A DNA stretch of 64,000 nucleotides from Desulfoferula mesophila (GTDB lineage: Bacteria > Desulfobacterota > Desulfarculia > Desulfarculales > Desulfarculaceae), in assembly GCF_037076455.1 (NCBI RefSeq), contig NZ_AP028679.1, positions 1,751,501 to 1,815,500 on the forward strand. The letters run 5' to 3'. The position numbers and the translations under genes are program-made. Below, piece by piece: positions 15,978 to 27,848 of the stretch (its first letter is position 1; every line of letters begins with the position of its first letter). The notes below the pieces were generated by a model. It was not told the DNA's origin and did no database searches. It saw only the letters and a list, made by a program, of their open reading frames with translations.

Positions 15978-17879
15978 ATGATGCCTGCGTCAGAGGAAAA
16001 TAACATCCCCAAGAGCCGCATGAGCGGCCCGGCCCGCTGGCTGGTGTTCACCGTGGCGGTGGGCCTGACTTGTTTTCATCTCTACACCGCCGCTTTCGGG
16101 GTGATGTCCCCCCTGTACCAGCGTTCGGTCCATTTGATGGGCCTGATGCTTCTGACCTTTTTGATCTACCGGGCCTTTACCGGCCGTGACGGCAGCAACC
16201 CCGGCGTGGTGGATTGGATCGTCAGCCTGGGCATGATCGCCGTGGGGCTGTTTTTCATCAACGCCTTCGCCCCCAACGCGGTGCTGGAGCGGGGCATCAT
16301 GGGCCCCACCGACAACGAGATATGGATGGGCGCCCTGCTCATAGTCCTGATCCTGGAGGGCACCCGGCGCACGGTGGGCCTGCCCATCGTGCTGGTGGCG
16401 GTGGCCTTTTTGGCCTACGGCATGCTGGGCCCCTACATGCCCGACATGCTGGCCCATAAGGGCTACAGCCCCCAGCGCCTGGTCAGCTACCTGGTGTGGA
16501 CCACCGAGGGCGTCTTCGGCATCCCCATCGCCGTGTCGGCCACCTTCGTGGTGGTGTTCATCATCTTCGGCGCCTTTTTGGACAAGCTGGGCGCGGGCAA
16601 TTTCTTCATCCAGCTGGCCCTGGCCCTCACCGGCCGGCGGCGGGGCGGCCCGGCACTCACCTCCGTGGTGGCCTCCGGTCTCATGGGCTCCATCAGTGGA
16701 TCGTCGGTGTCCAACGTGGTCACCACCGGCACTTTCACCATCCCCCTGATGAAGCGCACCGGCTATTCGCCCCTATTCGCCGGGGCGGTGGAAGCGGTGG
16801 CCTCCACCGGCGGGCAGATCATGCCCCCGGTGATGGGCGCGGGCGCCTTTGTCATGGCCGAGCTCTTGGGCACCTCCTATGCCCACATCGCCCTGGCCGC
16901 GGTCATCCCGGCCTTGCTCTACTTCCTCTCGGTGGGCCTGATGGTTTACTTCGAGGCCCAGCGCAAGCAGCTGAAGGTGCTGAGCAAGGAAGAGGTGCCC
17001 AACGCCCTGGATACGCTGCGCAAGGGATATCATTTGCTGATCCCTCTGCTGGTTCTGATCTATCTGCTGGTCGTAGAGCAGCTCTCGCCTATGCTCTCGG
17101 GCTTTTACGCCATCTGCACCCTGGTGGTCACCGCCTCGGCCTACATCGTGGTGCGCGAGAAGCGCTTCCCCTGGCGGGAGATTATCGAGGCCCTGGAAAA
17201 GGGCATCATCACCGCGGCGCCCGTGGCCATGGCCTGCGCCGCCGCGGGAATGGTCATCGGAGTGGTGTCCCTGACCGGCCTGGGGGTGCGCTTCACCCAG
17301 ATGGTGATCCATCTTTCCGGCGGCGTGCTTTGGCTGGGCGGCCTCTTGACCATGGTGGCCTGCATCATCCTGGGCATGGGCCTGCCCACCACGGCGGCCT
17401 ATATCATCACCGCCATCCTGGGGGTGCCCGCGCTCACCGACATGGGAGTCTCGCCGCTGCAGGCCCACATGTTCATCTTCTACTTCGCCATCATCTCCTT
17501 CATCACCCCGCCGGTGGCCATCAGCGCCTACGCGGCCAGCGGCATCGCGGGCACCAACGCCATGAACACCGGCTTCCAGTCCTTCAAGCTGGGCCTGGCC
17601 GGTTTTATCGTGCCCTTCCTGTTCCTCTATAGTCCTTCCATCGTGCTGGAGGGCTCGCTGTGGCACATCGTGCTCAACTCCCTCACCGCCATGCTGGGGG
17701 TGGGCGCGCTGGCCGGCGGCCTGGTCGGCTGGTTTTTCATGCCGTTGAAGCTCTGGCTTCGCCTGATATTCTTGGTTTCGGCCATAGCCCTCATCGTGCC
17801 CAACCTCCTGGCGAGCCTGGTCGGCATCGTGCCTTTGGTAATCGTGGCCATGATGGGGGTGAAGAGCAAAAAAGTTTAA
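15978..17879 (+). CDS. TRAP transporter permease, fused 4TM/12TM type
   Basis: A 633-residue polytopic membrane protein combining the small and large TRAP permease subunits, as is usual for TAXI systems. Signature segments include GLMGSISGSSVSNVVTTGTF, STGGQIMPPVMGAGAFVMAE, MVACIILGMGLPTTAAYI and FITPPVAISAYAASGIA. It would use an ion gradient to import the solute delivered by the TAXI protein. The start may be ATG 15978 or the adjacent ATG 15981. Confidence 0.93.
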   Translation: MMPASEENNIPKSRMSGPARWLVFTVAVGLTCFHLYTAAFGVMSPLYQRSVHLMGLMLLTFLIYRAFTGRDGSNPGVVDWIVSLGMIAVGLFFINAFAPNAVLERGIMGPTDNEIWMGALLIVLILEGTRRTVGLPIVLVAVAFLAYGMLGPYMPDMLAHKGYSPQRLVSYLVWTTEGVFGIPIAVSATFVVVFIIFGAFLDKLGAGNFFIQLALALTGRRRGGPALTSVVASGLMGSISGSSVSNVVTTGTFTIPLMKRTGYSPLFAGAVEAVASTGGQIMPPVMGAGAFVMAELLGTSYAHIALAAVIPALLYFLSVGLMVYFEAQRKQLKVLSKEEVPNALDTLRKGYHLLIPLLVLIYLLVVEQLSPMLSGFYAICTLVVTASAYIVVREKRFPWREIIEALEKGIITAAPVAMACAAAGMVIGVVSLTGLGVRFTQMVIHLSGGVLWLGGLLTMVACIILGMGLPTTAAYIITAILGVPALTDMGVSPLQAHMFIFYFAIISFITPPVAISAYAASGIAGTNAMNTGFQSFKLGLAGFIVPFLFLYSPSIVLEGSLWHIVLNSLTAMLGVGALAGGLVGWFFMPLKLWLRLIFLVSAIALIVPNLLASLVGIVPLVIVAMMGVKSKKV

Positions 17880-17895
17880 ACACCACGGATAGGCC

Positions 17896-19173
17896 ATGTC
17901 TAATCAACAAGTCGTTTGCCGAGCCTCGTCTTACCGCTGGGTGATTCTGGGCATATTGTCGTTTTCCTATTTGCTGGTGTTCGTGCATCGCATGTGCCCG
18001 GCGGTTTTGGCCGAGGACATAATGCACTCCTTCGGGGCCTCCGGGGCGGTCACGGGGTTGCTGGCTTCGGCATACTTCTATCCCTATGCCCTGATGCAGG
18101 GGCCGGGCGGCTTTATCACCGATCGCTTGGGAACCCGCCGCCTGGTCACCCTGTCCATGCTGGTGGCCAGCGTGGGCTCGGTGCTTTTCGCCCTTTCCTC
18201 CGGGGTCACCAGCGCCTTCCTGTCGAGGGTGCTGGTGGGCCTGGGGGTGTCGGTGGTGCTGGTGCCCACCTACAAGGCCCTCACCGCCTGGTTCCCGGTC
18301 AAGGACTACGTGCTGGGCACTTCCCTGGTTATAGCCGTCGCCGGGCTGGGCGCCCTGCTGGCCGGGTCGCCCCTGGCCGGGCTCAGCGAGGCCATCGGTT
18401 GGCGCGGCAGCTTCTGGGTCATCGCCGGTCTCACCATGGCCAATGCGGCCCTGGTGTGGTTTCTGGTGCGCGACAAGCCCCAGGATTTAGGCCTGCCTCC
18501 CGTGGAGACCATCGCGGAAGGAGACCACCACGCGGCTAAATCCGTTCCCCTGCGCCAGGTGTTGCCCATGGTGCTGGGCAACCGGGACTTTTGGCTGCTG
18601 GCTGGGTGGTTCTTCTTTAACGGCGGCGTGCTGTTCAGCTTTGCCGGTCTTTGGGCCGGGCCATATTACATGCAGGCCTACGCCATGAGCAAGACCCAGG
18701 CCGGGCAGGTGATAAACGTCTTTTCCTTCGGCTTGGTGTTCGGCCCCCTCATTTTCGCCTGGATCGCGGCCAAGGTGCCGTCGCGGGGGGCGGTGCTGGG
18801 CGGGAGCATGGTGGCCTGGTCCGCCATTCTGGTATGGATTCTCCTGCGCAACGGCTCCATGAGCCTGACCGAGATCTACGCCTTCAACCTCATCTTCGGC
18901 TTGGTGGGCGCGGGTCCGGCGGGGGTGTGTTTCGCCGCGGTAAAGGAGCGTTTTCCGGTCAGCATCGCGGGCACGGTCACCGGCTTTACTTATGTGCTGC
19001 CCATGATCGGCAGCGCGCTCTACCAGCCCTTGGCCGGAGCCATCCTGGACCGCTCCGGCAATCTTAGCGCCGGTCTGGGGGCGGCGGACTTCACCCCGCT
19101 GTTCTGGTTATACCTGGCCTCCACCGTGATCGGCGCGATCATGGCTTACGCTTACCGCACCCAAAAGCACTAG
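17896..19173 (+). CDS. MFS transporter
   Basis: This 425-residue protein has the 12-helix major facilitator pattern. The loop between helices 2 and 3 reads GGFITDRLGTRRLV, matching the family motif GxxxDrxGrR, and the first helix contains SYLLVFVHRMCPAVLAED, common in organic-anion and sugar-acid carriers. It follows the TRAP permease by 16 bases and is probably in the same operon, acting either as a second importer or as an exporter for the pathway's product. The substrate is unknown. Confidence 0.88.
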   Translation: MSNQQVVCRASSYRWVILGILSFSYLLVFVHRMCPAVLAEDIMHSFGASGAVTGLLASAYFYPYALMQGPGGFITDRLGTRRLVTLSMLVASVGSVLFALSSGVTSAFLSRVLVGLGVSVVLVPTYKALTAWFPVKDYVLGTSLVIAVAGLGALLAGSPLAGLSEAIGWRGSFWVIAGLTMANAALVWFLVRDKPQDLGLPPVETIAEGDHHAAKSVPLRQVLPMVLGNRDFWLLAGWFFFNGGVLFSFAGLWAGPYYMQAYAMSKTQAGQVINVFSFGLVFGPLIFAWIAAKVPSRGAVLGGSMVAWSAILVWILLRNGSMSLTEIYAFNLIFGLVGAGPAGVCFAAVKERFPVSIAGTVTGFTYVLPMIGSALYQPLAGAILDRSGNLSAGLGAADFTPLFWLYLASTVIGAIMAYAYRTQKH

Positions 19174-19190
19174 CAGCCTATCCAAAGACG

Positions 19191-19220
19191 CCCGGGCCGA
19201 CTGACCTTCGGCCCGGGTTG
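19191..19220 (+). terminator. terminator-like hairpin after MFS gene
   Basis: CCCGGGCCGA at 19191-19200 pairs perfectly with TCGGCCCGGG at 19208-19217, loop CTGACCT, followed by TTGTCTT. The T-run is interrupted, but the position 17 bases after the stop fits the end of the IclR-TRAP operon. Confidence 0.75.
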
Positions 19221-19280
19221 TCTTCACCTCCCTCGCCGTTTGGCGCCTCGGGCGCGGCGCCCCCCCGATGTAACCCAAAG

Positions 19281-19310
19281 TTAACAAATTACCGCCACGG
19301 CGGTTGTTAA
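19281..19310. promoter_or_regulatory. 30-bp dyad upstream of the GAK-type operon
   Basis: TTAACAA (19281-19287) and TTGTTAA (19304-19310) are perfect inverted arms, and inside them ACCGCC (91-96) and GGCGGT (99-104) form a second perfect pair around AC. The nested symmetry about 104 bases before the first GAK gene suggests an operator or a 5' leader hairpin. An AT-rich TAAGAT (about 19308-19313) could be a -10 element. No regulator gene is adjacent that would obviously own this site. Confidence 0.4.
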
Positions 19311-19413
19311 GATAAGAGGCCAAACTGCTGATGCGCGGGCCCGGCTCGGTCCGGGCCTAAACCGGCGGGCCGCGGGCCTAAGGGCCTGTTGCGCGCCAAC
19401 AGAAGAGAGTTTT

Positions 19414-20595
19414 ATGAGCAACAAAGGGCAGACCCAGGCAGCACCCTCCGGCGCCCCGCCTATTCCACCAGATTACGATCTGGAGCGGGCGGCGGGCGAT
19501 ATCGACTCCTGGGACCAGGCGCAGTACGAAGGCATCATTTCCACCGAGCTCACTTCCGACCAGCGCGTCCGGGTGGCCGAGCCCGATGGCGCCCATCCCC
19601 GGCAACGCGAGATTCTGGCCATCCACTGGCACCCGGAATGGGTTCCCATGGATTTGACCGCCCGGCGGGTGGATGCCCTTTATCCCAACGCGGACAAAAG
19701 CCTGATCATCCCCACCCAACACAACCAGATTCTCGACTGGAACGGCTACAGCGGGGTGGAGGTGGATTGTTATTCCTCCGGCTTCAACCGAAAGGTGCAG
19801 CTCTTGCTGCATTTCAAAACCGAGGCCCTGGGCGAGGCCCATATCCTGCGCTCCATGCTGGAGCACACCTTCAAATACCGTTCGGGACAGATGTTCGAGT
19901 TCATTGACACCATCATCAATCCCGCTCTGTCGGCGCGCCTGGAGCAGGCGGCCAACGACACCGGCTCCAGCGAAGAGGTGGTGGCCTTCACACGCTTTTA
20001 CACCGCCCGGCTGCGCCGTTTGGTGGAGATGAACCTGGCCGATACCCCCGCGTTCATGATCAAGAACAAGCTGTTGACCGAATACATCGACGCCCAGCGC
20101 GGGCGCCATACCGAGGTCATGGTCAACCGGGCCCAGCTCTTGCTCAAGGCGGTGAAGGCCATCGTCAAGGCGCATTTTTCCCTTAGCTATTTTTTCCGGG
20201 CCAGCGAGGTCATCGAAGAAGCCCGTTCCTTGGGCGGCGGGGTGGTGATTCCCCACCCCGAGCAGTTCTGGCCCATCCTGCTGGCCGAATATGACGTGGA
20301 CGGGGTGGAGGTCTGGAACCCCCAGTCGCGCGAGTACACCGAGTTTTTGATCCGGGCCCTGACCAACCAGAACAAGAGCCTGCCCTCCGGGCGTCGGCCC
20401 ATGCTGATCTTCATGGGAGACGACACTCACATGTCGGTCAAGCTCAAGGAGCCGGGCCGAGTGGAGCCTTCCAAGTACGAGCGGGAAGTGGGCTTGCAAC
20501 CCGCCTGGGACGACGTGGCGGTGCGCAAGAGCCTCAGTCTGGCCGGGGCCAGCCGCTCGCAGGTAATCGATGAATACCGGTCTCGCCTCAATTAA
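19414..20595 (+). CDS. PHP-type metal-dependent hydrolase, first gene of GAK cluster
   Basis: This 393-residue protein carries dispersed metal-ligand motifs like those of PHP phosphoesterases. H71-x-H73 is followed by P and E (HWHPEW), then H103, E116 and H133, VVIPHPEQFW with H281, DGVEVWN at 296-302, and a DDTH motif at 336-339 matching the final PHP DxH. The middle third (about 140-265) is helical and longer than in simple PHP proteins. It begins the seven-gene block and is 13 bases from the next gene. I infer a cytoplasmic phosphatase or hydrolase acting with the kinases downstream. The substrate is unknown; overall similarity to characterised PHP enzymes looks weak. Confidence 0.7.
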   Translation: MSNKGQTQAAPSGAPPIPPDYDLERAAGDIDSWDQAQYEGIISTELTSDQRVRVAEPDGAHPRQREILAIHWHPEWVPMDLTARRVDALYPNADKSLIIPTQHNQILDWNGYSGVEVDCYSSGFNRKVQLLLHFKTEALGEAHILRSMLEHTFKYRSGQMFEFIDTIINPALSARLEQAANDTGSSEEVVAFTRFYTARLRRLVEMNLADTPAFMIKNKLLTEYIDAQRGRHTEVMVNRAQLLLKAVKAIVKAHFSLSYFFRASEVIEEARSLGGGVVIPHPEQFWPILLAEYDVDGVEVWNPQSREYTEFLIRALTNQNKSLPSGRRPMLIFMGDDTHMSVKLKEPGRVEPSKYEREVGLQPAWDDVAVRKSLSLAGASRSQVIDEYRSRLN

Positions 20596-20608
20596 AGGAT
20601 AGGGAGCA

Positions 20609-20896
20609 ATGAGTTCCTCCGCCAACAGGTTCAGGCATGAGTCTCTCCAGGACTGCCAAAGCATCATCAATTATTTGATCGCCCTCAAGGACGGCTTCGA
20701 AAGCGGGGCCCTGCTGTTTTCCACCGACGGCCGCAACCTGGTGCTCAAGCCCGATGGCTTGATCAACCTGAACGTGGAAGCCAAGCGCAAGGGGGAGGAG
20801 ATCAAGCTTTCCCTGAAGATGCGCTGGAGCGAAAACGAGGGCGGCGGCAACCCCGAGGACCAGCCCCTTTTGATAGAGCCCATCAAGGCAAGTTAA
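20609..20896 (+). CDS. amphi-Trp domain protein
   Basis: A 95-residue protein matching the amphi-Trp pattern: LKDGFESGALLFS, then alternating strands LVLKPDGLINLNVEAKRKGE and IKLSLKMRWSENE ending in the conserved Trp. These small proteins recur in GAK gene clusters. The ribosome site AGGGAGCA precedes ATG 20609. The N-terminal part of the XXXCH protein at 25773 looks like a second, diverged copy, which suggests a shared binding role for the fold. The biochemical function is unknown. Confidence 0.85.
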   Translation: MSSSANRFRHESLQDCQSIINYLIALKDGFESGALLFSTDGRNLVLKPDGLINLNVEAKRKGEEIKLSLKMRWSENEGGGNPEDQPLLIEPIKAS

Positions 20897-20905
20897 GCGT
20901 CAGCC

Positions 20906-22558
20906 ATGCCAGCCACGCATCGCCTGGAAGAGGTGCGGGAGAATTTCCGCTTCATCGTCAGCGAAGTCACCGCCCAGGTAGAGCTCACCCGCCGCTTTTA
21001 CCAGCAGCCCCGCCGGGAGCTGATGGAGAAGATCAGCTCCCGCGACGACTACGTGGACAACCTCAAGAGCGTTATCCAGGAGCAGAGCTTCGACCGCCTC
21101 ATGGACCCCAGGGGCATCGAGCGGGCCAAGGTGGTGGAGCTAAGGGCGCTCAACACCATAACCGCCAACCTGGAGCGCATCGCCGATTTCGCGGTGAACC
21201 TGGTGGGCCAGATGGGCCATCTGGCGCAGTTGGAAAACCGGCGCCTGGTAGACTTTGCCCCCTTTTTCGACGAGGTGCTGGTGGGGCTGAACAACGTGGT
21301 GGACGCCCTGGATCGGCGCAACTCCAACAAGGCCTTTCGCATCTGCCAGTGCGAGTTCAACCTGGACGAGCTGCACCGCCACACCTTTGGCAAGGTGTTG
21401 GAGGAGCTGGAGGCCAGTTCCCATCGCGGCGACCTGGTGACCATCATTTTTTTCAGCCACTACCTGGAGCGCATGGGCGACTGCCTGCTCAACATCGGCG
21501 AGGCCCTTATCTTCGTCCTGGTGGGCGAGAAGATGAAGATCCGCCAGTACCAGGCCCTGAACGACACCCTGGCCGCCTCCGGCCTGTCGTCTTCGGTGGG
21601 GCAGGTGGAGTTCGAATCCATCTGGGGCACCAGGGGCGGCTGCCGCATCGCGGCGGTGCAGGATCCGCGGCCCGAGTCCACCAGCCCGGTGCTGTTCAAG
21701 CAGGGCCTGGCCAAGAAGCTGGGCAAGGAAAAAGAAAACCTGGAGCTGTGGGAAAAGCTGGCCCCCGGCCTACCCCCCAAGGTGTGGGCCTTCCAGGAGG
21801 ACGAGGACGGCGAAGGCTCCATTCTCCTGGAATACCTGCCCGGCTGCACCATGCAGGACTTGCTTGTCAACGGCGACGAGACAAACCTGGCCCGGTCCGA
21901 GAACCTGCTGGAAGAGACCCTGGGCAAGGTGTGGTGGAGAACCAAGCAGGCTAGAGAGCTGCGTTCCGATTTCGTGGGCCAGATTCGCGCCCGTCAGGAG
22001 GCGGTGTACCGCATCCATCCCGAGCTTGAGAGCAAACCCGTGGTCATCGGCAACCTGCGGCTGCCTTCCTTCGAGGGCCTGCTGGATACCTTGGAGGAAC
22101 TGGAGCCCGAGCTGGCCGCCCCCTACGCGGTGCGCACCCACGGAGACCTCAACCTGAACAACGTGATTTACGACCCCCTCGGCCAGCGCCTGCATTTCAT
22201 CGATCTGCACCGCTCGGCCATGGCCGACTGCGCCCAGGACATCTCGGTGTTTTTGGTCTCCAACTTCCGCTTGCCGGTTTTCGAACCCGAGGTGCGCCGG
22301 CGCATCAACACGGTCATCGCGCGCTTTCTGAACTTCGCCCTGGATTTCGCCCGCAACCTGGGCGACGAGGCCTTTCAGGCCCGTCTGGCCCTGGGGTTGG
22401 GGCGCTCCATGTTTTCCTCCACCCGCTTTGAAATGAACGGCCACTTCGCCCGGGAGATGCATCTCAGGGCCGTGTACTTGTTGGAGCGGGTGGTGGCCCA
22501 CCGGGGCCGGGATTGGTCACGCTTCAAGCTGCCCCGGCAACCCCTCATCTTTCCCTGA
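20906..22558 (+). CDS. PhoU-like domain fused to APH-type kinase domain
   Basis: A 550-residue two-part protein. Residues about 1-205 are helical and PhoU-like, with NTITANLERIADFAVNLVGQ and SHYLERMGDCLLNIGEALIF, matching the E-R-i-x-D repeats of PhoU. Residues about 230-550 are an aminoglycoside-phosphotransferase-type kinase fold: the catalytic loop HGDLNLNN has H412 and D414, and a metal-binding D433 sits in HFIDLHRSAMAD. The intact catalytic residues suggest a real small-molecule or protein kinase, here wired to a phosphate-signalling type domain. The fusion belongs to the GAK cluster. It is unlikely to be an antibiotic-resistance enzyme. The substrate is unknown. Confidence 0.82.
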   Translation: MPATHRLEEVRENFRFIVSEVTAQVELTRRFYQQPRRELMEKISSRDDYVDNLKSVIQEQSFDRLMDPRGIERAKVVELRALNTITANLERIADFAVNLVGQMGHLAQLENRRLVDFAPFFDEVLVGLNNVVDALDRRNSNKAFRICQCEFNLDELHRHTFGKVLEELEASSHRGDLVTIIFFSHYLERMGDCLLNIGEALIFVLVGEKMKIRQYQALNDTLAASGLSSSVGQVEFESIWGTRGGCRIAAVQDPRPESTSPVLFKQGLAKKLGKEKENLELWEKLAPGLPPKVWAFQEDEDGEGSILLEYLPGCTMQDLLVNGDETNLARSENLLEETLGKVWWRTKQARELRSDFVGQIRARQEAVYRIHPELESKPVVIGNLRLPSFEGLLDTLEELEPELAAPYAVRTHGDLNLNNVIYDPLGQRLHFIDLHRSAMADCAQDISVFLVSNFRLPVFEPEVRRRINTVIARFLNFALDFARNLGDEAFQARLALGLGRSMFSSTRFEMNGHFAREMHLRAVYLLERVVAHRGRDWSRFKLPRQPLIFP

Positions 22559-22569
22559 GCCGGTATGAA

Positions 22570-23463
22570 ATGACGACAAAGAGTAAACTCAAAGTAGCCG
22601 TGGTCGGCATCGCGGGCGGTTGGTCCAGCCAACGCCTGCTGGATGCCCTGGAACAACGCACCGGATTCCGTTGCTTGGTGGACATGTCCCAGGTGCGCTC
22701 GGACCTGCACACCGGCCGGGCCTATTATGACGACGTGGACCTGACCGCCCTGGACGGCTTGGTAATCAAAAAGGTGGGGGCCGAGTATTCCCCGGATCTG
22801 TTGGACCGCCTGGAGCTGCTGCGCTTCATCGCCTCCCGGGGGCCGCGCGTCTTTTCGCCGCCCGCCTCCATCATCGCCATGCTGGACCGCCTGAGCTGCA
22901 CCACCACCCTGGTGGCCGGGGGCATCCCCATGCCGCCCACCGTGGTCACCGAAAGCGTGGACCAGGCGGCCCGGGCGGTTGAGCGCATGGGCCGCTCGGT
23001 GCTCAAGCCCCTGTACTCCACCAAGGCCCGGGGCATGCTGGTGGTGGAGCCCGGACCCGGCCTGCGCGAGAAAATCGCCGCATACCGCGACGCGGGTCAC
23101 CCCATGATCTACTTGCAGCAAATGCTGGCCTTGCCCGGCCAGGACCTGGGCGTGGTGTTCTTGGGTGGTGAGTATCTGGCCACCTACGCCCGCGTGGCCA
23201 ACGGCGACTCCTGGAACACCACCCGCCGGGCGGGGGGCCGCTACCAGGAGTACGAGCCCAGCCGGGAGATCAAGGAGCTGGCCCAGCGGGCCCAGGCCTT
23301 GTTCAATCTGGATTTCACCTGCGTGGGCGTGGCCGAGACCGAACAAGGTCCGGTGGTGTTCGAGGTGAGCGCCTTTGGCGGCTTCCGGGGGCTGCAGGAA
23401 GGATGCGCCATGGACGCGGCCAGCTATTACGCCGAATACGTTTGCCGGGAGTTGGCCTCATGA
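22570..23463 (+). CDS. ATP-grasp enzyme, GAK system type
   Basis: This 297-residue protein has the ATP-grasp fold of the RimK group: an N-terminal alpha/beta part (VAVVGIAGGWSSQRLL), then SVLKPLYSTKARGM as the ATP-binding lysine and loop, LQQMLALPGQDLGVVFLGGE, and the metal-binding VVFEVSAFGGFRGLQEG near the C terminus. RimK relatives join an amino acid, often glutamate, to a carboxylate. True RimK ends its metal site with E-x-N; here the segment is EVSAFGG, so the asparagine is not in the usual place. ATG 22570 is chosen because the stop of the previous gene lies 11 bases before it. Its TGA overlaps the next start. Confidence 0.88.
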   Translation: MTTKSKLKVAVVGIAGGWSSQRLLDALEQRTGFRCLVDMSQVRSDLHTGRAYYDDVDLTALDGLVIKKVGAEYSPDLLDRLELLRFIASRGPRVFSPPASIIAMLDRLSCTTTLVAGGIPMPPTVVTESVDQAARAVERMGRSVLKPLYSTKARGMLVVEPGPGLREKIAAYRDAGHPMIYLQQMLALPGQDLGVVFLGGEYLATYARVANGDSWNTTRRAGGRYQEYEPSREIKELAQRAQALFNLDFTCVGVAETEQGPVVFEVSAFGGFRGLQEGCAMDAASYYAEYVCRELAS

Positions 23464-24527
23464 ACCTGCCTCGCGTAAGCGAGTTGGCCGAAGAGCTGCT
23501 GGGGCGCCAGACGGCCGATATCCGCCTGAACCTTGGGCTCAACGAACTGAACTTCGAGATCCGCACCAACCGCCCCGAGCTGGCCGAGGAACTGGAGCGC
23601 TATTACCGGCCTTTCCAGCAGGCCGGCGGCGACGGGCCCCTGATCACGGTGTACGCCCTGGAGACCCCGGCCTGGGATTGCGCTCTGCCGCTCAGGCTCA
23701 AGGACCCGGAGCCGGGCAAGAGCAAAATCAAGGAAGAGTACGTGGACCTTGCGGACGGGCGCCTGGTGCGCAAGCGCCTCACGGGCATGGTCTTCGTCTT
23801 CGGCGGCGATACCAACCTGGCCCTGGGGCCCTGCCTGGCCAATCCCAACCAAGTGGTCAACTTCATCAACAACCGTCAGATACAATGGGAATTGGAGCGG
23901 GGAGCCTTGCTGGCCCACGCCGCCGGGGTATGCGGCCCGCGCCTGGGCCTGGCCATGGCCGGGCGGGCGGGGCAGGGCAAGTCCACCCTGGCCCTGCACC
24001 TGATGAGCCGGGGAGTTACCTTCGTCTCCAATGACCGCCTCATGGTGACCCAAGGCGAACAGGGCCCCTTGATGAGCGGGCTGGCCAAGCTGCCGCGCAT
24101 CAACCCCGGCACGGCGCTTAACAACCCGGACCTGAGCAAGGTGATGAGCCCGACCGATCAAAAGCGTTTCGCCGCCCTGCCGCCGGCGCAGCTGTGGTCC
24201 CTGGAGCACAAGTACGACGTGGACATCGACGCCTGCTTCGGACCGGGGCGTATCAAGATGGGCGGGAGCCTCGACCTGCTGGCCCTGCTGGATTGGGAGC
24301 GCGACGCCGGGGAATGCCGCCTGCGGCAAGTGGATTTGGCCGAGCACCCGGACCTGTTGGCCGCCTTTATGAAGGAGCCGGGCCTGTTCTATCTGCCGCC
24401 CGTGGGCCAGGCCGCGCCCGGCCAAGCGGACTATCTCCGGGTGCTGGCCGGGGCCAAGGTCTTGGTCCTGGAGGGTGGGGTTGATTTCGAAAGGGCCGCG
24501 GATTTGCTGGCCCAGGAGCTGCGCTAG
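23460..24527 (+). CDS. HprK-related kinase B
   Basis: The 355-residue protein resembles the kinase domain of HPr(Ser) kinase. The P-loop reads AGRAGQGKSTLALHLMSRG at about residue 165, and the downstream VTFVSNDRLMV corresponds to the HprK segment with an Asp next to the active site. The N-terminal 150 residues are unlike HprK of Firmicutes. A PTS-type HPr gene is not present here. The start ATG overlaps the ATP-grasp stop (ATGA), so the two enzymes are translationally coupled, the pairing behind the name grasp-and-kinase. The target of phosphorylation is unknown; proteins of the same cluster are candidates. Confidence 0.88.
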   Translation: MNLPRVSELAEELLGRQTADIRLNLGLNELNFEIRTNRPELAEELERYYRPFQQAGGDGPLITVYALETPAWDCALPLRLKDPEPGKSKIKEEYVDLADGRLVRKRLTGMVFVFGGDTNLALGPCLANPNQVVNFINNRQIQWELERGALLAHAAGVCGPRLGLAMAGRAGQGKSTLALHLMSRGVTFVSNDRLMVTQGEQGPLMSGLAKLPRINPGTALNNPDLSKVMSPTDQKRFAALPPAQLWSLEHKYDVDIDACFGPGRIKMGGSLDLLALLDWERDAGECRLRQVDLAEHPDLLAAFMKEPGLFYLPPVGQAAPGQADYLRVLAGAKVLVLEGGVDFERAADLLAQELR

Positions 24528-24529
24528 AC

Positions 24530-25732
24530 TTGAGCGACCAAGGTGGCCTGACCATAAGCCGACCCCTGCGCGTGCCCGATCCGGTGCGACTGGCCCGCTA
24601 CGGCCGAGCGCCGGAGCTGGGGCCAACCATCCTGTTTTTCAGTGGCGGCACCGGACCCGGCCCCCTGTGCCGGGAGCTGATCCAATACACCCACAACTCC
24701 ATCCACCTCATCACCCCCTTTGACTCCGGCGGCTCGTCGGCGGTTTTGCGCCGGGCCTTTGCCATGCCCGCGGTGGGCGACCTGCGCAACCGCATGATGG
24801 CCCTGGCCGACATGAGCGTGCGGGGCAACGCCGAGGTGCGCCGCCTTTTCTCCTATCGCCTGCCCCCGGAGGCCGACGCCCGGGAGCTGCGGCAGCGCCT
24901 GGAGGACATGGTGGAGGGCGACGACCCCTTGGTGGCCGCGGTTCCCGACCCCCTGCGCAAGATCATCCGCAACCACCTGGGCTATTTCCTGGCCGAGATG
25001 CCGGATCACTTCGACCTGGCCGGGGCCAGCATCGGCAACCTGGTCTTGGTGGGGGGCTATCTCAACAACGGCCGCCATCTGGACCCGGTGGTTTTTCTGT
25101 TCACCAAGCTGGCCGAGGTGCGCGGGGTGGTGCGCCCGGTGGTCAACCAGGATCTGCACCTGTCCGCCCGCCTGGCCGACGGCCGCCTGATCCTGGGGCA
25201 GCACCGCCTGACCGGCAAGAACGAGCCGCCCTTGTCCTCGCCCATCGTAAAGCTGGGCCTGAATCAGGGCCTGGACCAGGAGCGCCCGGCATCGGCGGCG
25301 ATCAGGCCCAAGGTGGCCCGCCTCGTCGCCACGGCGGAGCTGATCTGCTATCCGGTGGGCAGCTTTTACAGCAGCCTGTTGGCCAGCCTGTTGCCCTCGG
25401 GAATAGGGGAGGCGGTGGCCGCCAATCCCTGTCCCAAGGTGTTCGTGCCCAATACCGCGCCGGATAGCGAGGCGCTCACGGGGGGGGTGGCCCAGCGCGT
25501 GGCCGAGCTGCTTGGCGCTCTGGGCGCCCAGGAGGGGGCCCGGCGCGACGGGGGACGAGTCTTGGATTACGTGCTTTTGGACCGGCAGTGGCAAGGCTAT
25601 CCCGGAGGATGGGATCGCCGGTCCCTGGAAGATATGGGCCTGGGGGTCATCGAGACCGAACTAGTCACGCCAGACAGCGCCCCCCTGACCGATGGGCGCC
25701 TTTTGGCCGAAGCCCTGCTCTCTTTGGTTTGA
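24530..25732 (+). CDS. CofD-like protein, GAK system type
   Basis: A 400-residue protein of the CofD/YvcK superfamily. The N-terminal nucleotide or phosphate site FFSGGTGPGPLCREL and the following PFDSGGSSAVLRRAF and VGDLRNRMMALAD are close to the family's GGGTG, DDGGSSG and GDLRN motifs; GNLVLVGGYLNNG is also typical. CofD is a 2-phospho-lactate transferase of coenzyme F420 synthesis, while YvcK binds UDP-GlcNAc. Neither role is supported here, since no F420 genes are present. Translation probably starts at TTG 24530, two bases after the previous stop, with CAGGAG as ribosome site; no ATG fits the conserved N terminus. Confidence 0.85.
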   Translation: MSDQGGLTISRPLRVPDPVRLARYGRAPELGPTILFFSGGTGPGPLCRELIQYTHNSIHLITPFDSGGSSAVLRRAFAMPAVGDLRNRMMALADMSVRGNAEVRRLFSYRLPPEADARELRQRLEDMVEGDDPLVAAVPDPLRKIIRNHLGYFLAEMPDHFDLAGASIGNLVLVGGYLNNGRHLDPVVFLFTKLAEVRGVVRPVVNQDLHLSARLADGRLILGQHRLTGKNEPPLSSPIVKLGLNQGLDQERPASAAIRPKVARLVATAELICYPVGSFYSSLLASLLPSGIGEAVAANPCPKVFVPNTAPDSEALTGGVAQRVAELLGALGAQEGARRDGGRVLDYVLLDRQWQGYPGGWDRRSLEDMGLGVIETELVTPDSAPLTDGRLLAEALLSLV

Positions 25733-25772
25733 GGCCAGGGAGGCGACGGTAGTCTATTACCTGGAGAAACGT

Positions 25773-26393
25773 ATGAACACTCCCAAGAAGGATAAAGTGA
25801 AGCACCGCTTTTCGCCCGCCGAGGCGGCGGACTATCTGCGCCAACTGGCCGACGCCTTGGAGCAGGGGCACATCGCCCTGCGCTCCGACGAGCTGGACCT
25901 GGAGGGCGAGGTAAAGGTCAAAGAGGAGCTCAAGACCAAGTCCGACAAGACCACCTTGAAGATAAACCTCAAGCTGGTTTCTCCCATACCCATTCCCTCG
26001 CCGGAAGAGGCCGCGGCCGGGGAGGCCGGCGAGCCGGAGCAGGACGGGGGGTTCGTGGAGATAACTGCCGGTGAGGAGGAGCCCGCCGAGAGCGAGGGCA
26101 AGGCTTCCTACAAAAAGGTGAAAAAGGCCCTGGGCAAAAGCTTCAGCGCGGTGCGGGAGGCCCGCAAGCAGGGGGGCATGCCCGAGGCTGAGCAAGTCGC
26201 GGCCTTTCTGGCCGATGCCCGGGCCCTGTGCACCTTTGACAAGGCCAAGTACGGCAGCGAGAACTACCCCCGCTTTTTGGCCGCCCTGGAGCGCCTGGAA
26301 GCGGCCATGGCCGCCGGCGAGGCCCAGGCCCTGGACGAGGCTCTGGCCGAAGTGGCTCAGTGCAAAAGCGACTGTCACGGCAAGTTCAAATAG
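25773..26393 (+). CDS. XXXCH domain protein, last gene of GAK cluster
   Basis: This 206-residue protein ends in CKSDCHGKFK, the short C-terminal CH motif that names the XXXCH family. Residues about 12-65 resemble an amphi-Trp domain (YLRQLADALEQGHIALRS, then strands ending in KINLKLV). A Glu/Gly/Pro-rich linker separates this from the helical C-terminal part. A small protein with a conserved C-terminal Cys-His next to a ligase and two kinases looks more like a substrate or carrier than an enzyme; that is inference. ATG 25773 follows the ribosome site CTGGAGAAAC. A strong terminator 26 bases after the stop ends the operon. Confidence 0.82.
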   Translation: MNTPKKDKVKHRFSPAEAADYLRQLADALEQGHIALRSDELDLEGEVKVKEELKTKSDKTTLKINLKLVSPIPIPSPEEAAAGEAGEPEQDGGFVEITAGEEEPAESEGKASYKKVKKALGKSFSAVREARKQGGMPEAEQVAAFLADARALCTFDKAKYGSENYPRFLAALERLEAAMAAGEAQALDEALAEVAQCKSDCHGKFK

Positions 26394-26418
26394 ATACGCA
26401 TCCAGCCAAATCGCCCCT

Positions 26419-26445
26419 GGCCGCCCTCTGGGGCGGCCTTTTTTT
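26419..26445 (+). terminator. rho-independent terminator of the GAK operon
   Basis: GGCCGCCC at 26419-26426 pairs perfectly with GGGCGGCC at 26431-26438, loop TCTG, followed by seven T. It separates the GAK genes from the GntR regulator gene. Confidence 0.93.
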
Positions 26446-26576
26446 GCGCTCCGGCGGCCACTTTAATCTAACTGGCCAGGATAAAACCGATATCGCTGAA
26501 TTTTTATTGGGTGGGGTTTTTAAAATCATTGAGGATTTTGCTTGAAATGGCTGCCTTGAAGTGATAATCATGCTGC

Positions 26577-27296
26577 ATGGAAAGCATGTTGTCAGACAAA
26601 TATGAGTTGAAGCAGCCTTTGCGTCTTCCCGACCAGGTGGCCGCCATACTCGTGGGGGAGTTGGAAAACGGCACGCTCAAGCCGGGCGAGATGCTGCCTC
26701 CCGAGATGGAACTGGCCGCCCGCTTCGGCGTGAGCCGGGCGGTGATCCGCGAGGCGCTTTCCCAGCTCAAGGCCGAAGGGCTTTTGGAATCTCAACAGGG
26801 GCGCGGGGTCATGGTGGTGGGACGCGCCGGACGCCGTTACTTCCGCCTGGAGGATCCCGAGAAATCCAACGCTGAATCCCTGACCCACCTGTATGAGCTT
26901 CGGGCCATCCTGGAAGCCGAGGCCGCGGCCTTGGCCGCCGCTCGGGCCCATACGCGCGATATCGCCCGCTTGGGTGAGTGCGTGGTGGCCATGGCCCACG
27001 CGGTGGAAGGCGACGCCATAGGGGCCGTGCCCGACCTGGACTTTCATCGCGGCATCGCCGAGGCCAGCGGCAATCAGCACCTGTGCGAACTGATGCAGTT
27101 CTTGAACGACAAGCTGCTGGTGCTCATCCAAGGGGCCAGGGAGCATTCGCGGCAAAACCCCGGCCTGCCCCGGCAGGTGCAAAAGGAACACGAGAGCATC
27201 TACCGGGCCATAGAGGCGCGCGACCCCCAGAAGGCCAGGGAAGAGACCCTGGCCCATCTGCGGATGGCGGCCAAACGCTTGGGGCTGGATATCTAG
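26577..27296 (+). CDS. GntR-family (FadR-type) transcriptional regulator
   Basis: The 239-residue protein has the GntR winged helix (MLPPEMELAARFGVSRAVIR) and a FadR/FCD-type helical effector domain with the metal-binding pattern DLDFHRGIAEASGN, H in KEHESIYRAIEARD and a final AHLRMAAKRLG. FCD proteins respond to small organic acids and usually repress neighbouring genes. It lies 186 bases upstream of the 2-oxoacid oxidoreductase operon and is the likely regulator. Start ATG 26577 or ATG 26586 are both possible. CATGC and GCATG form an inverted repeat (26569-26588) around the start codon. Confidence 0.9.
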   Translation: MESMLSDKYELKQPLRLPDQVAAILVGELENGTLKPGEMLPPEMELAARFGVSRAVIREALSQLKAEGLLESQQGRGVMVVGRAGRRYFRLEDPEKSNAESLTHLYELRAILEAEAAALAAARAHTRDIARLGECVVAMAHAVEGDAIGAVPDLDFHRGIAEASGNQHLCELMQFLNDKLLVLIQGAREHSRQNPGLPRQVQKEHESIYRAIEARDPQKAREETLAHLRMAAKRLGLDI

Positions 27297-27482
27297 GGTG
27301 GACGAGGTCTTCGCCGGCCGCGCGGCCGCCAAGCGGGCTTTAGTCGGGCAGGGGAGCTTTGAGGTTTTTTTGGTCAAGGGGCGCCGGCTGCCCGTCAAGA
27401 CGGTCTAAAATGTTGAGTGGCCGAGGAAAGGCGCGGAGGGCGCCTTTTGATACTTAATCGGATCAAGCACTGGAGTAGTGAC

Positions 27483-27848
27483 ATGATCGCCAACCAGGCG
27501 ACCACGAAACGGGACAAGCCGAAAGGTAAACACAGCTTTTATCCTGCCTGGTGTAAGCGTTGCGGCAATTGCGTGTCCTTTTGTCCCCTGGGCATCCTGG
27601 TCGCGGATGAATGGGGCTATCCCCGTCTGGTGGACCAGGATCGCTGCACGGGATGCGGGCTATGCGAAATGCTTTGCCCCGACTTCGCCATAACCGTGGG
27701 CTATGAAAAACCCGGGGCAATGGACTTGGCCCATCCGGTCGGCGCGGTAAGGCCGCGTGAGGTGAAAAAGGAACAATCCGAGTCCGCCAAGAACACCGGC
27801 ACGATCAGCCCGGAACGTTTGGCCCCGGTGCCGCGGGAGGAAAAATAG
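27483..27848 (+). CDS. korD: 4Fe-4S ferredoxin subunit of 2-oxoacid:ferredoxin oxidoreductase (delta)
   Basis: A 121-residue protein with two classic [4Fe-4S] motifs, CKRCGNCVSFCP and CTGCGLCEMLCP. It passes electrons from the TPP-containing catalytic subunit to soluble ferredoxin. ATG 27483 is preferred because GGAG precedes it and because the alternative upstream frame adds only unconserved residues. The stop lies 2 bases before the alpha subunit gene. The 40-residue tail after the second cluster is charged and poorly conserved. Confidence 0.9.
   Translation: MIANQATTKRDKPKGKHSFYPAWCKRCGNCVSFCPLGILVADEWGYPRLVDQDRCTGCGLCEMLCPDFAITVGYEKPGAMDLAHPVGAVRPREVKKEQSESAKNTGTISPERLAPVPREEK

Follow-up and report, generated by a model that had tools for sequence, protein, structure and literature searches.

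A PhoU-fold/APH-fold kinase fusion and its amphi-Trp neighbor in a bacterial GAK gene cluster

Residues of the PhoU signature bind metal in other PhoU proteins, and HPr is the small substrate of HPr kinase. Both domains of the fusion protein described here, a PhoU half and an APH-fold kinase half, are already known, and the type of gene cluster that encodes it has been named in NCBIfam as the GAK system, with the families TIGR04355, TIGR04356, TIGR04357, TIGR04358, and TIGR04354. Our literature search among CC-licensed PMC papers returned, in the portions of text that it covered, none that we recognized as dealing with the GAK system or with a PhoU–kinase fusion.

The window analyzed here is a 64,000-nucleotide stretch of the Desulfoferula mesophila genome (contig NZ_AP028679.1, positions 1,751,501 to 1,815,500, forward strand). 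With PhoU proteins (PF01895, TIGR02135; structures 4q25 and 1t72), its fusion protein shares the two-repeat helical fold and the doubled E-R-x-x-D signature, but it carries a kinase, lies outside the pst operon, scores under the PhoU equivalog cut-off, and has lost the signatures in some clades. With the APH-fold small-molecule kinases PsiK (8zic), 5-methylthioribose (MTR) kinase (2pyw/2olc), FN3K (9cxo), LxmK (9dk3), and APH(3')-Ia (4ej7), it shares the fold (Z 17.8–20.5) and the HGD-x-N-x-x-N/Asp catalytic set, but it is only 10–18% identical to them and is joined to PhoU. The surrounding cluster has all five NCBIfam GAK families, yet in our data the fusion steadily accompanies them and can also be found apart from them. 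Like HPr kinase and HPr, the cluster pairs an HprK-related kinase B with a protein of ~95 aa, a likeness that we offer as an analogy only and that implies neither kinship of the amphi-Trp protein to HPr nor a substrate role for it. What the present analysis adds is the linkage of the fusion to amphi-Trp, its persistence without other GAK genes, its Rhodobacterales plasmid contexts, and the loss of the PhoU signature in two clades.

The fusion and its gene cluster

Seven co-directional genes occupy positions 19414–26393, with the fusion third (Table 1). In order, they encode a 393-aa PHP-fold protein, an amphi-Trp protein, the fusion, the GAK ATP-grasp enzyme, HprK-related kinase B (HprK-B), the GAK CofD-like protein, and an amphi-Trp/XXXCH protein. 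Five of the six genes other than the fusion pass NCBIfam cut-offs, the ATP-grasp, HprK-B, CofD-like, amphi-Trp, and XXXCH models all matching in adjacent genes and three of the models being named 'GAK system'. The fusion and the PHP-fold gene have zero NCBIfam models above cut-off; both are steady GAK members missing from the NCBI family models. The start of the ATP-grasp gene was picked by profile and translation, and the HprK-B start overlaps its stop. Downstream of the seventh gene, a hairpin that matches the terminator consensus would terminate the seven-gene unit. An Rfam search of positions 17800–27500 and a PADLOC search with the seven cluster proteins each gave zero matches.

Table 1. 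Coordinates of the cluster genes and of the principal features of the fusion, numbered within the window
Feature	Position	Strand	Evidence or remark
PHP-fold phosphoesterase-like protein, 393 aa	19414..20595	+	alignment, model, fold match
amphi-Trp protein, 95 aa, directly 5' of the fusion	20609..20896	+	TIGR04354 69.8 bits, cut-off 31
PhoU–APH fusion gene, 550 aa	20906..22558	+	ORF, Pfam/NCBIfam, AlphaFold2 model and fold match
PhoU half, residues 1–212, two three-helix repeats	20906..21541	+	PF01895, 4q25
First PhoU signature, E90-R-x-x-D94-x-x-x-N98	21173..21199	+	(nearly) invariant in delta/myxobacterial copies
Second PhoU signature, E188-R-x-x-D192-x-x-x-N196-x-x-E199	21467..21502	+	alignments
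APH-fold kinase half, about residues 239–550	21620..22555	+	PF01636, fold matches
K265, presumed N-lobe ATP lysine; E275 in next helix	21698..21700	+	invariant
Catalytic loop HGDLNLNN, residues 412–419	22139..22162	+	H412, G413, D414, N416, N419 invariant
D433, presumed second Mg ligand	22202..22204	+	invariant
GAK ATP-grasp enzyme	22570..23463	+	TIGR04356 435.9 bits, cut-off 300
HprK-related kinase B	23460..24527	+	TIGR04355 459.1 bits, cut-off 200
GAK CofD-like protein	24530..25732	+	TIGR04357 508.6 bits, cut-off 340
amphi-Trp + XXXCH-domain protein, 206 aa from the start used	25773..26393	+	TIGR04358 72.3 bits, cut-off 40; TIGR04354 40 bits, cut-off 31
Terminator-like hairpin, 8 G-C pairs, T-run	26419..26438	+	consensus match only

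The fusion reading frame runs from ATG to TGA over 550 codons with zero internal stops. Pfam places PF01895 in two stretches of it (68 bits, cut-off 23.5) and PF01636 at residues 290–456 (31.2 bits, cut-off 23.2). The full-chain AlphaFold2 model, built from a 16-row alignment (mean pLDDT 84.3, pTM 0.65), bears out the original prediction of a PhoU-like N-terminal half on a kinase of aminoglycoside-phosphotransferase type: residues 1–208 match the PhoU structure 4q25 (Z 25.5, rmsd 1.8, 206 aligned), whereas residues 211–547 match PsiK (8zic, Z 20.5) and residues 209–550 match MTR kinase (2pyw, Z 20.5), with further kinase-half matches to 3csv (Z 20.2) and APH(3')-Ia (4ej7, Z 17.8). The predicted E-R-x-x-D motif occurs twice in the PhoU half, at E90–D94 and E188–D192. 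A missing PhoU fold or a pocket devoid of ATP ligands would have spoken against that prediction; the model has the fold, and the kinase half has the ATP/Mg residues. Together, sequence and model confirm the junction of a PhoU-type fold with a kinase whose active site is intact. The pTM leaves the orientation of the two halves uncertain, and residues 232–257, likely the nucleotide-binding hairpin, are poorly modeled, with 232–247 and 249–257 at pLDDT < 50.

The first gene of the cluster was recognized by structure. Pfam matched a PHP family in 0 of 23 members, and Pfam and PDB sequence searches gave nothing beyond chance. Its model (mean pLDDT 83.5) matches the PHP proteins 3o0f (BAD_1165, Z 14.8), RNase AM 9etk (Z 13.8), and 2yb1 (Z 13.6), followed by PHP-bearing DNA polymerases (12.2 and 10.0) and a next match at 5.8; the Foldseek E-value is only 0.0018. 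Compared with the PHP phosphoesterases (3o0f, RNase AM 9etk/7ug9, and 2yb1), it has the same fold (Z 13.2–14.8) and keeps the conserved His/Asp/Glu motifs, but it lacks a sequence-level match beyond chance and has extra helices. Highly conserved and without a Pfam family, this PHP-fold protein is a candidate new family.

At the other end of the cluster, the XXXCH protein has an amphi-Trp N-terminus, and its C-terminal end, CKSDCH, is a CxxxCH sequence; weak Pfam matches to cytochrome b562 and c' were also seen (E 0.0013 and 0.069).

Conserved residues, gene contexts, and the amphi-Trp pair

We compared the fusion across three alignments with overlapping rows, of 16 (A1), 27 (A4), and 19 (A5) sequences; A4 was made without L043 and L057 (large insert), L049, and most of L003–L016 (those in A1), and A5 holds 19 of the fusions collected. 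K265, E275, H412, G413, D414, N416, N419, and D433 are invariant in all of them (16/16, 27/27, and 19/19). The catalytic loop reads HGDLNLNN, in agreement with the original prediction, which called it and the metal-binding Asp intact. The fusion thereby holds the catalytic Asp, Asn, Mg-binding Asp, and N-lobe Lys/Glu of the APH fold, roles that we assigned by position: K265 is presumed to be the ATP lysine from its place in the predicted fold, and D433 is taken to be the second Mg ligand by the role of its counterpart in the APH family.

The PhoU signature follows another course. E90, D94, E150, D154, E188, D192, N196, and E199 are all kept in the 13 delta/myxobacterial rows of A5. In all three alphaproteobacterial plasmid copies, D94 and N98 are replaced by Arg and most other signature residues are gone, E199 being retained. 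Among 11 copies of family f4, D47/D48 are gone, and Glu replaces D94 in 5 and N196 in all 11, with E188, D192, and E199 retained. The PhoU match survives this loss, at 18.8 to 39.3 bits in five alpha/f4 copies, one of which falls under the PF01895 cut-off of 23.5. In our maximum-likelihood tree, in which two short Myxococcota clusters form long branches, the alpha and f4 fusions are separate clades, each fully supported. The PhoU signature has thus degenerated in two separate clades, and since it is lost in one and partly in the other while the kinase residues are unchanged, the signature is expendable and the kinase is not. The fusion is available in forms that have the PhoU signature and forms that have lost it, all with intact kinase residues, which lets one ask what a PhoU fold does away from Pst. 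Several f4 fusions (L043 and L057) also have a large insert between the two halves, in open frames of 635–706 aa.

The fusion does not arise by chance: a scan of genome contigs recovered 16 relatives, of which 15 are full-length fusions at 40–86% identity and the sixteenth is interrupted by its contig end. At E ≤ 1e-40, the fusion is present in 46 of 60 related genomes, namely 30 of 34 in f4 and 16 in f1/f6, a count made by eye from the listing in which the f1/f6 figure includes partial matches at contig ends. More broadly, it was found in 23 of 297 genomes sampled from the phylum and, in the phylum that includes Enhygromyxa, in 3 of 140 genomes. Counted by eye from listings, 17 of the 297 have the fusion with GAK CofD, 6 the fusion only, and 11 CofD only, the fusion being absent from 11 of the 28 CofD genomes. 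Phage records yielded PhoU-like stretches in four Listeria phages only, all of them stand-alone.

The fusion occurs in six gene contexts, most of which include phosphatase-type genes. Most Thermodesulfobacteriota loci carry the full GAK cluster with the PHP gene. Four myxobacterial genomes of Enhygromyxa/Plesiocystis type have GAK without it, the PHP gene being found in 0/4 genome-wide and a replacement phosphatase not being identified. Rhodobacterales plasmids combine the fusion, annotated there only as a phosphotransferase, with ATP-grasp, HprK-B, a histidine phosphatase, a metallophosphoesterase, and amphi-Trp, without a PHP gene; CofD-like is divergent in two of the three and NUDIX is present in one (Pfam scores in L088: His_Phos_1 55.3 bits, Metallophos 28.5, and NUDIX 51.9 bits). 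Family f4 has the fusion and amphi-Trp, mostly with PHP, and GAK CofD or ATP-grasp in 0/34 genomes (counted from listings). Two Myxococcota loci (L091 and L092) have amphi-Trp and the fusion only, other cluster genes, including the phosphatases sought, being absent from their flanks (~8–9 kb upstream and 3–8 kb downstream). Finally, G306 and G249 have PHP, amphi-Trp, the fusion, and HprK-B in one place and ATP-grasp, HprK-B, and CofD in a second. The fusion thus outlives the other GAK genes, in 30 of the 34 f4 genomes and in two Myxococcota.

Across these contexts, a regular feature is the amphi-Trp gene: in 42 of 42 loci, it sits directly upstream of the fusion and on its strand. These are the loci left once L018 and L070, which are cut by contig ends, the decayed L056, L059 (a duplicate of locus L010), and the short L019–L038 had been set aside; L091/L092, L093–L100, and the three plasmid loci, collected later, are likewise outside this count. 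The upstream arrangement also holds in the two further Myxococcota (L091 and L092), and in the three Rhodobacterales plasmid clusters amphi-Trp is present, but downstream. By this comparison of contexts, CofD marks the fusion poorly, and the steady pair is amphi-Trp plus the fusion. The amphi-Trp/kinase pair is a minimal unit found even where the remaining cluster genes are missing, which puts its function within reach of a two-gene test.

Possible function and a possible link to phosphate

We favor an explanation for which belief and doubt stand level: the APH-fold kinase would be active, the PhoU half at its N-terminus would serve in regulation or docking, and the functional unit would comprise this kinase and the product of the adjacent amphi-Trp gene. 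Together they would phosphorylate a target, be it a metabolite of the cluster or the amphi-Trp protein, and a separate cluster phosphoesterase would probably remove or process the phosphate, a role that could fall to the PHP-type enzyme in most Thermodesulfobacteriota and to the histidine phosphatase and metallophosphoesterase in Rhodobacterales. These phosphoesterases may share the substrate of the kinase; the pairing of kinase and phosphatase is not universal, as the four Enhygromyxa/Plesiocystis-type genomes have no PHP gene and L091 and L092 carry no gene of the phosphatase types sought. A second layer, which the contexts above show to be separable, would be formed by the ATP-grasp, HprK-B, and CofD-like genes. 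Conserved gene order by itself is no proof that the amphi-Trp protein and the fusion are physical partners.

The original prediction went further, proposing that phosphate supply could control phosphorylation of a small molecule or protein of the GAK cluster. Its premise stands, namely that a gene of the cluster joins a PhoU fold to a kinase that has its ATP/Mg residues; control by phosphate is only partly supported, with evidence from pst location and PhoU signatures pointing both ways. Under such control, the PhoU half would sense phosphate, as metal-bound phosphate or through a partner, and gate the kinase, so that Pi supply sets phosphorylation of a GAK molecule. The PhoU fold, the E-R-x-x-D signatures, and their retention in all 13 delta/myxobacterial rows of A5 are consistent with this. 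According to PMC12301784, E. coli PhoU contains Mn, and Pi binding is proposed for the alpha-6 motif RxxERxxD(R/H); an E(D)XXXD motif is given in PMC5686610. Against this, the signatures are lost in the alpha copies and partly in f4, and position 193, the closing basic site of the alpha-6 motif, is occupied by C, S, A, M, or L in 26 of the 27 A4 rows and by K in the remaining one, though the pst-linked PhoU of the same genome likewise lacks a basic residue there, having E. That PhoU passes TIGR02135 with 195.7 bits, whereas the fusion reaches 80.1 bits against a cut-off of 130.25.

Genomic location is similarly divided. The seven cluster genes include no Pst gene, a separate pstC-pstA-pstB-phoU operon lies ~1.33 Mb from the cluster in the same genome, and where PstC and the fusion share a contig they lie >500 kb from each other in five genomes (this one, G000, and also G006, G009, G010, and G041), the distance in G306 being 75 kb. 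A search of the window for the Pho box TGTCAN6TGTCA with ≤1 mismatch gave 0 matches against 1.66 expected. We had read the separate operon as making phosphate irrelevant, a view softened by pst genes lying ≤10 kb from a GAK gene in four other lineages: L015, G177, genus g7 (G013 and G016), and G205, where the neighbor is a solo CofD. With one operon placed at random per 4 Mb, 0.33 would be expected for the 67 loci (1.32 Mb; Poisson P(≥4) 0.0004), in a test that is post hoc and has uneven flank lengths. G013 and G016 were chosen because PhoU was seen nearby, genus g7 being counted once, and G016 and G177 were scored by PstB only, their remaining pst genes lying on another contig. Setting the distant operon against this proximity, we regard phosphate gating as rather unlikely.

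An alternative that we judge unlikely is that the PhoU half is a mere structural or dimerization scaffold and the protein a constitutive metabolite kinase of a GAK cofactor or natural-product pathway, comparable to other metabolite kinases of the APH fold. The nearest folds of the kinase half are indeed small-molecule kinases (PsiK, MTR kinase, and FN3K), its neighbors are transferase/ligase-type enzymes, and the PhoU signatures are dispensable in two clades; they are strongly conserved elsewhere, however, and f4 and two Myxococcota retain the fusion while lacking the ATP-grasp and CofD that would build the remaining molecule. Names in database records, 'aminoglycoside phosphotransferase family protein' among them, might suggest instead a resistance enzyme fused to its upstream domain by chance, in line with the fold match to APH(3')-Ia and weak APH(3') model matches. 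This we hold to be extremely improbable, as the APH_3p score of 31.9 bits compares with an NCBIfam equivalog cut-off of 205 bits and the fusion is old and conserved in a fixed operon.

Our preferred explanation, an active kinase paired with amphi-Trp, has a more specific form, one that we also judge unlikely. Here, the amphi-Trp protein itself would be phosphorylated by a PhoU-gated atypical kinase and reset by unrelated phosphatases, with HprK-B, ATP-grasp, and CofD further modifying amphi-Trp-type proteins. If so, the amphi-Trp/PhoU–APH pair would be the core of an unrecognized bacterial small-protein phosphorylation system. A hint in this direction, at the level of sequence, is that an amphi-Trp Ser tracks HprK-B: 25 of 26 loci with HprK-B have the Ser of the [HYF]xSxQD motif, against 1 of 16 without detected HprK-B. 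Of these 16, 14 belong to f4 and two (L007 and L016) are cut by their contig ends before the expected HprK-B place, and because 14 of 16 are f4 loci, shared ancestry explains the association equally well.

Reduced, decayed, and duplicated loci

Several individual loci depart from the contexts described above. One locus of the same genus (L052, G004:C74:65000-84500) keeps CofD, XXXCH, GntR, and the downstream Kor genes, with PHP, amphi-Trp, the fusion, ATP-grasp, and HprK-B missing at that place, a natural block loss. G100 (L068, 4309–7441) has in-frame TAA and TAG in the fusion, TGA in the PHP gene, and a fragmented CofD, its ATP-grasp and HprK-B frames being open, and is either a decaying cluster or affected by assembly errors. 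Selenocysteine or recoding was considered for the in-frame stops of L068, L010, and L069 and set aside, as TAA, TAG, and TGA fall at unrelated positions; decay or assembly error is likelier.

Eight genomes of genus g83 in family f42 (L072–L077, L084, and L085) have a GAK CofD-like gene without other cluster genes nearby. In G205 (L078, 5533–10500), a genome with no fusion, the solo GAK CofD-like gene comes at most about 0.5 kb after pstC-pstA-pstB-phoU. The Desulfocurvus genome G325 (L060 and L010) carries two GAK-type clusters, one with CofD and one without.
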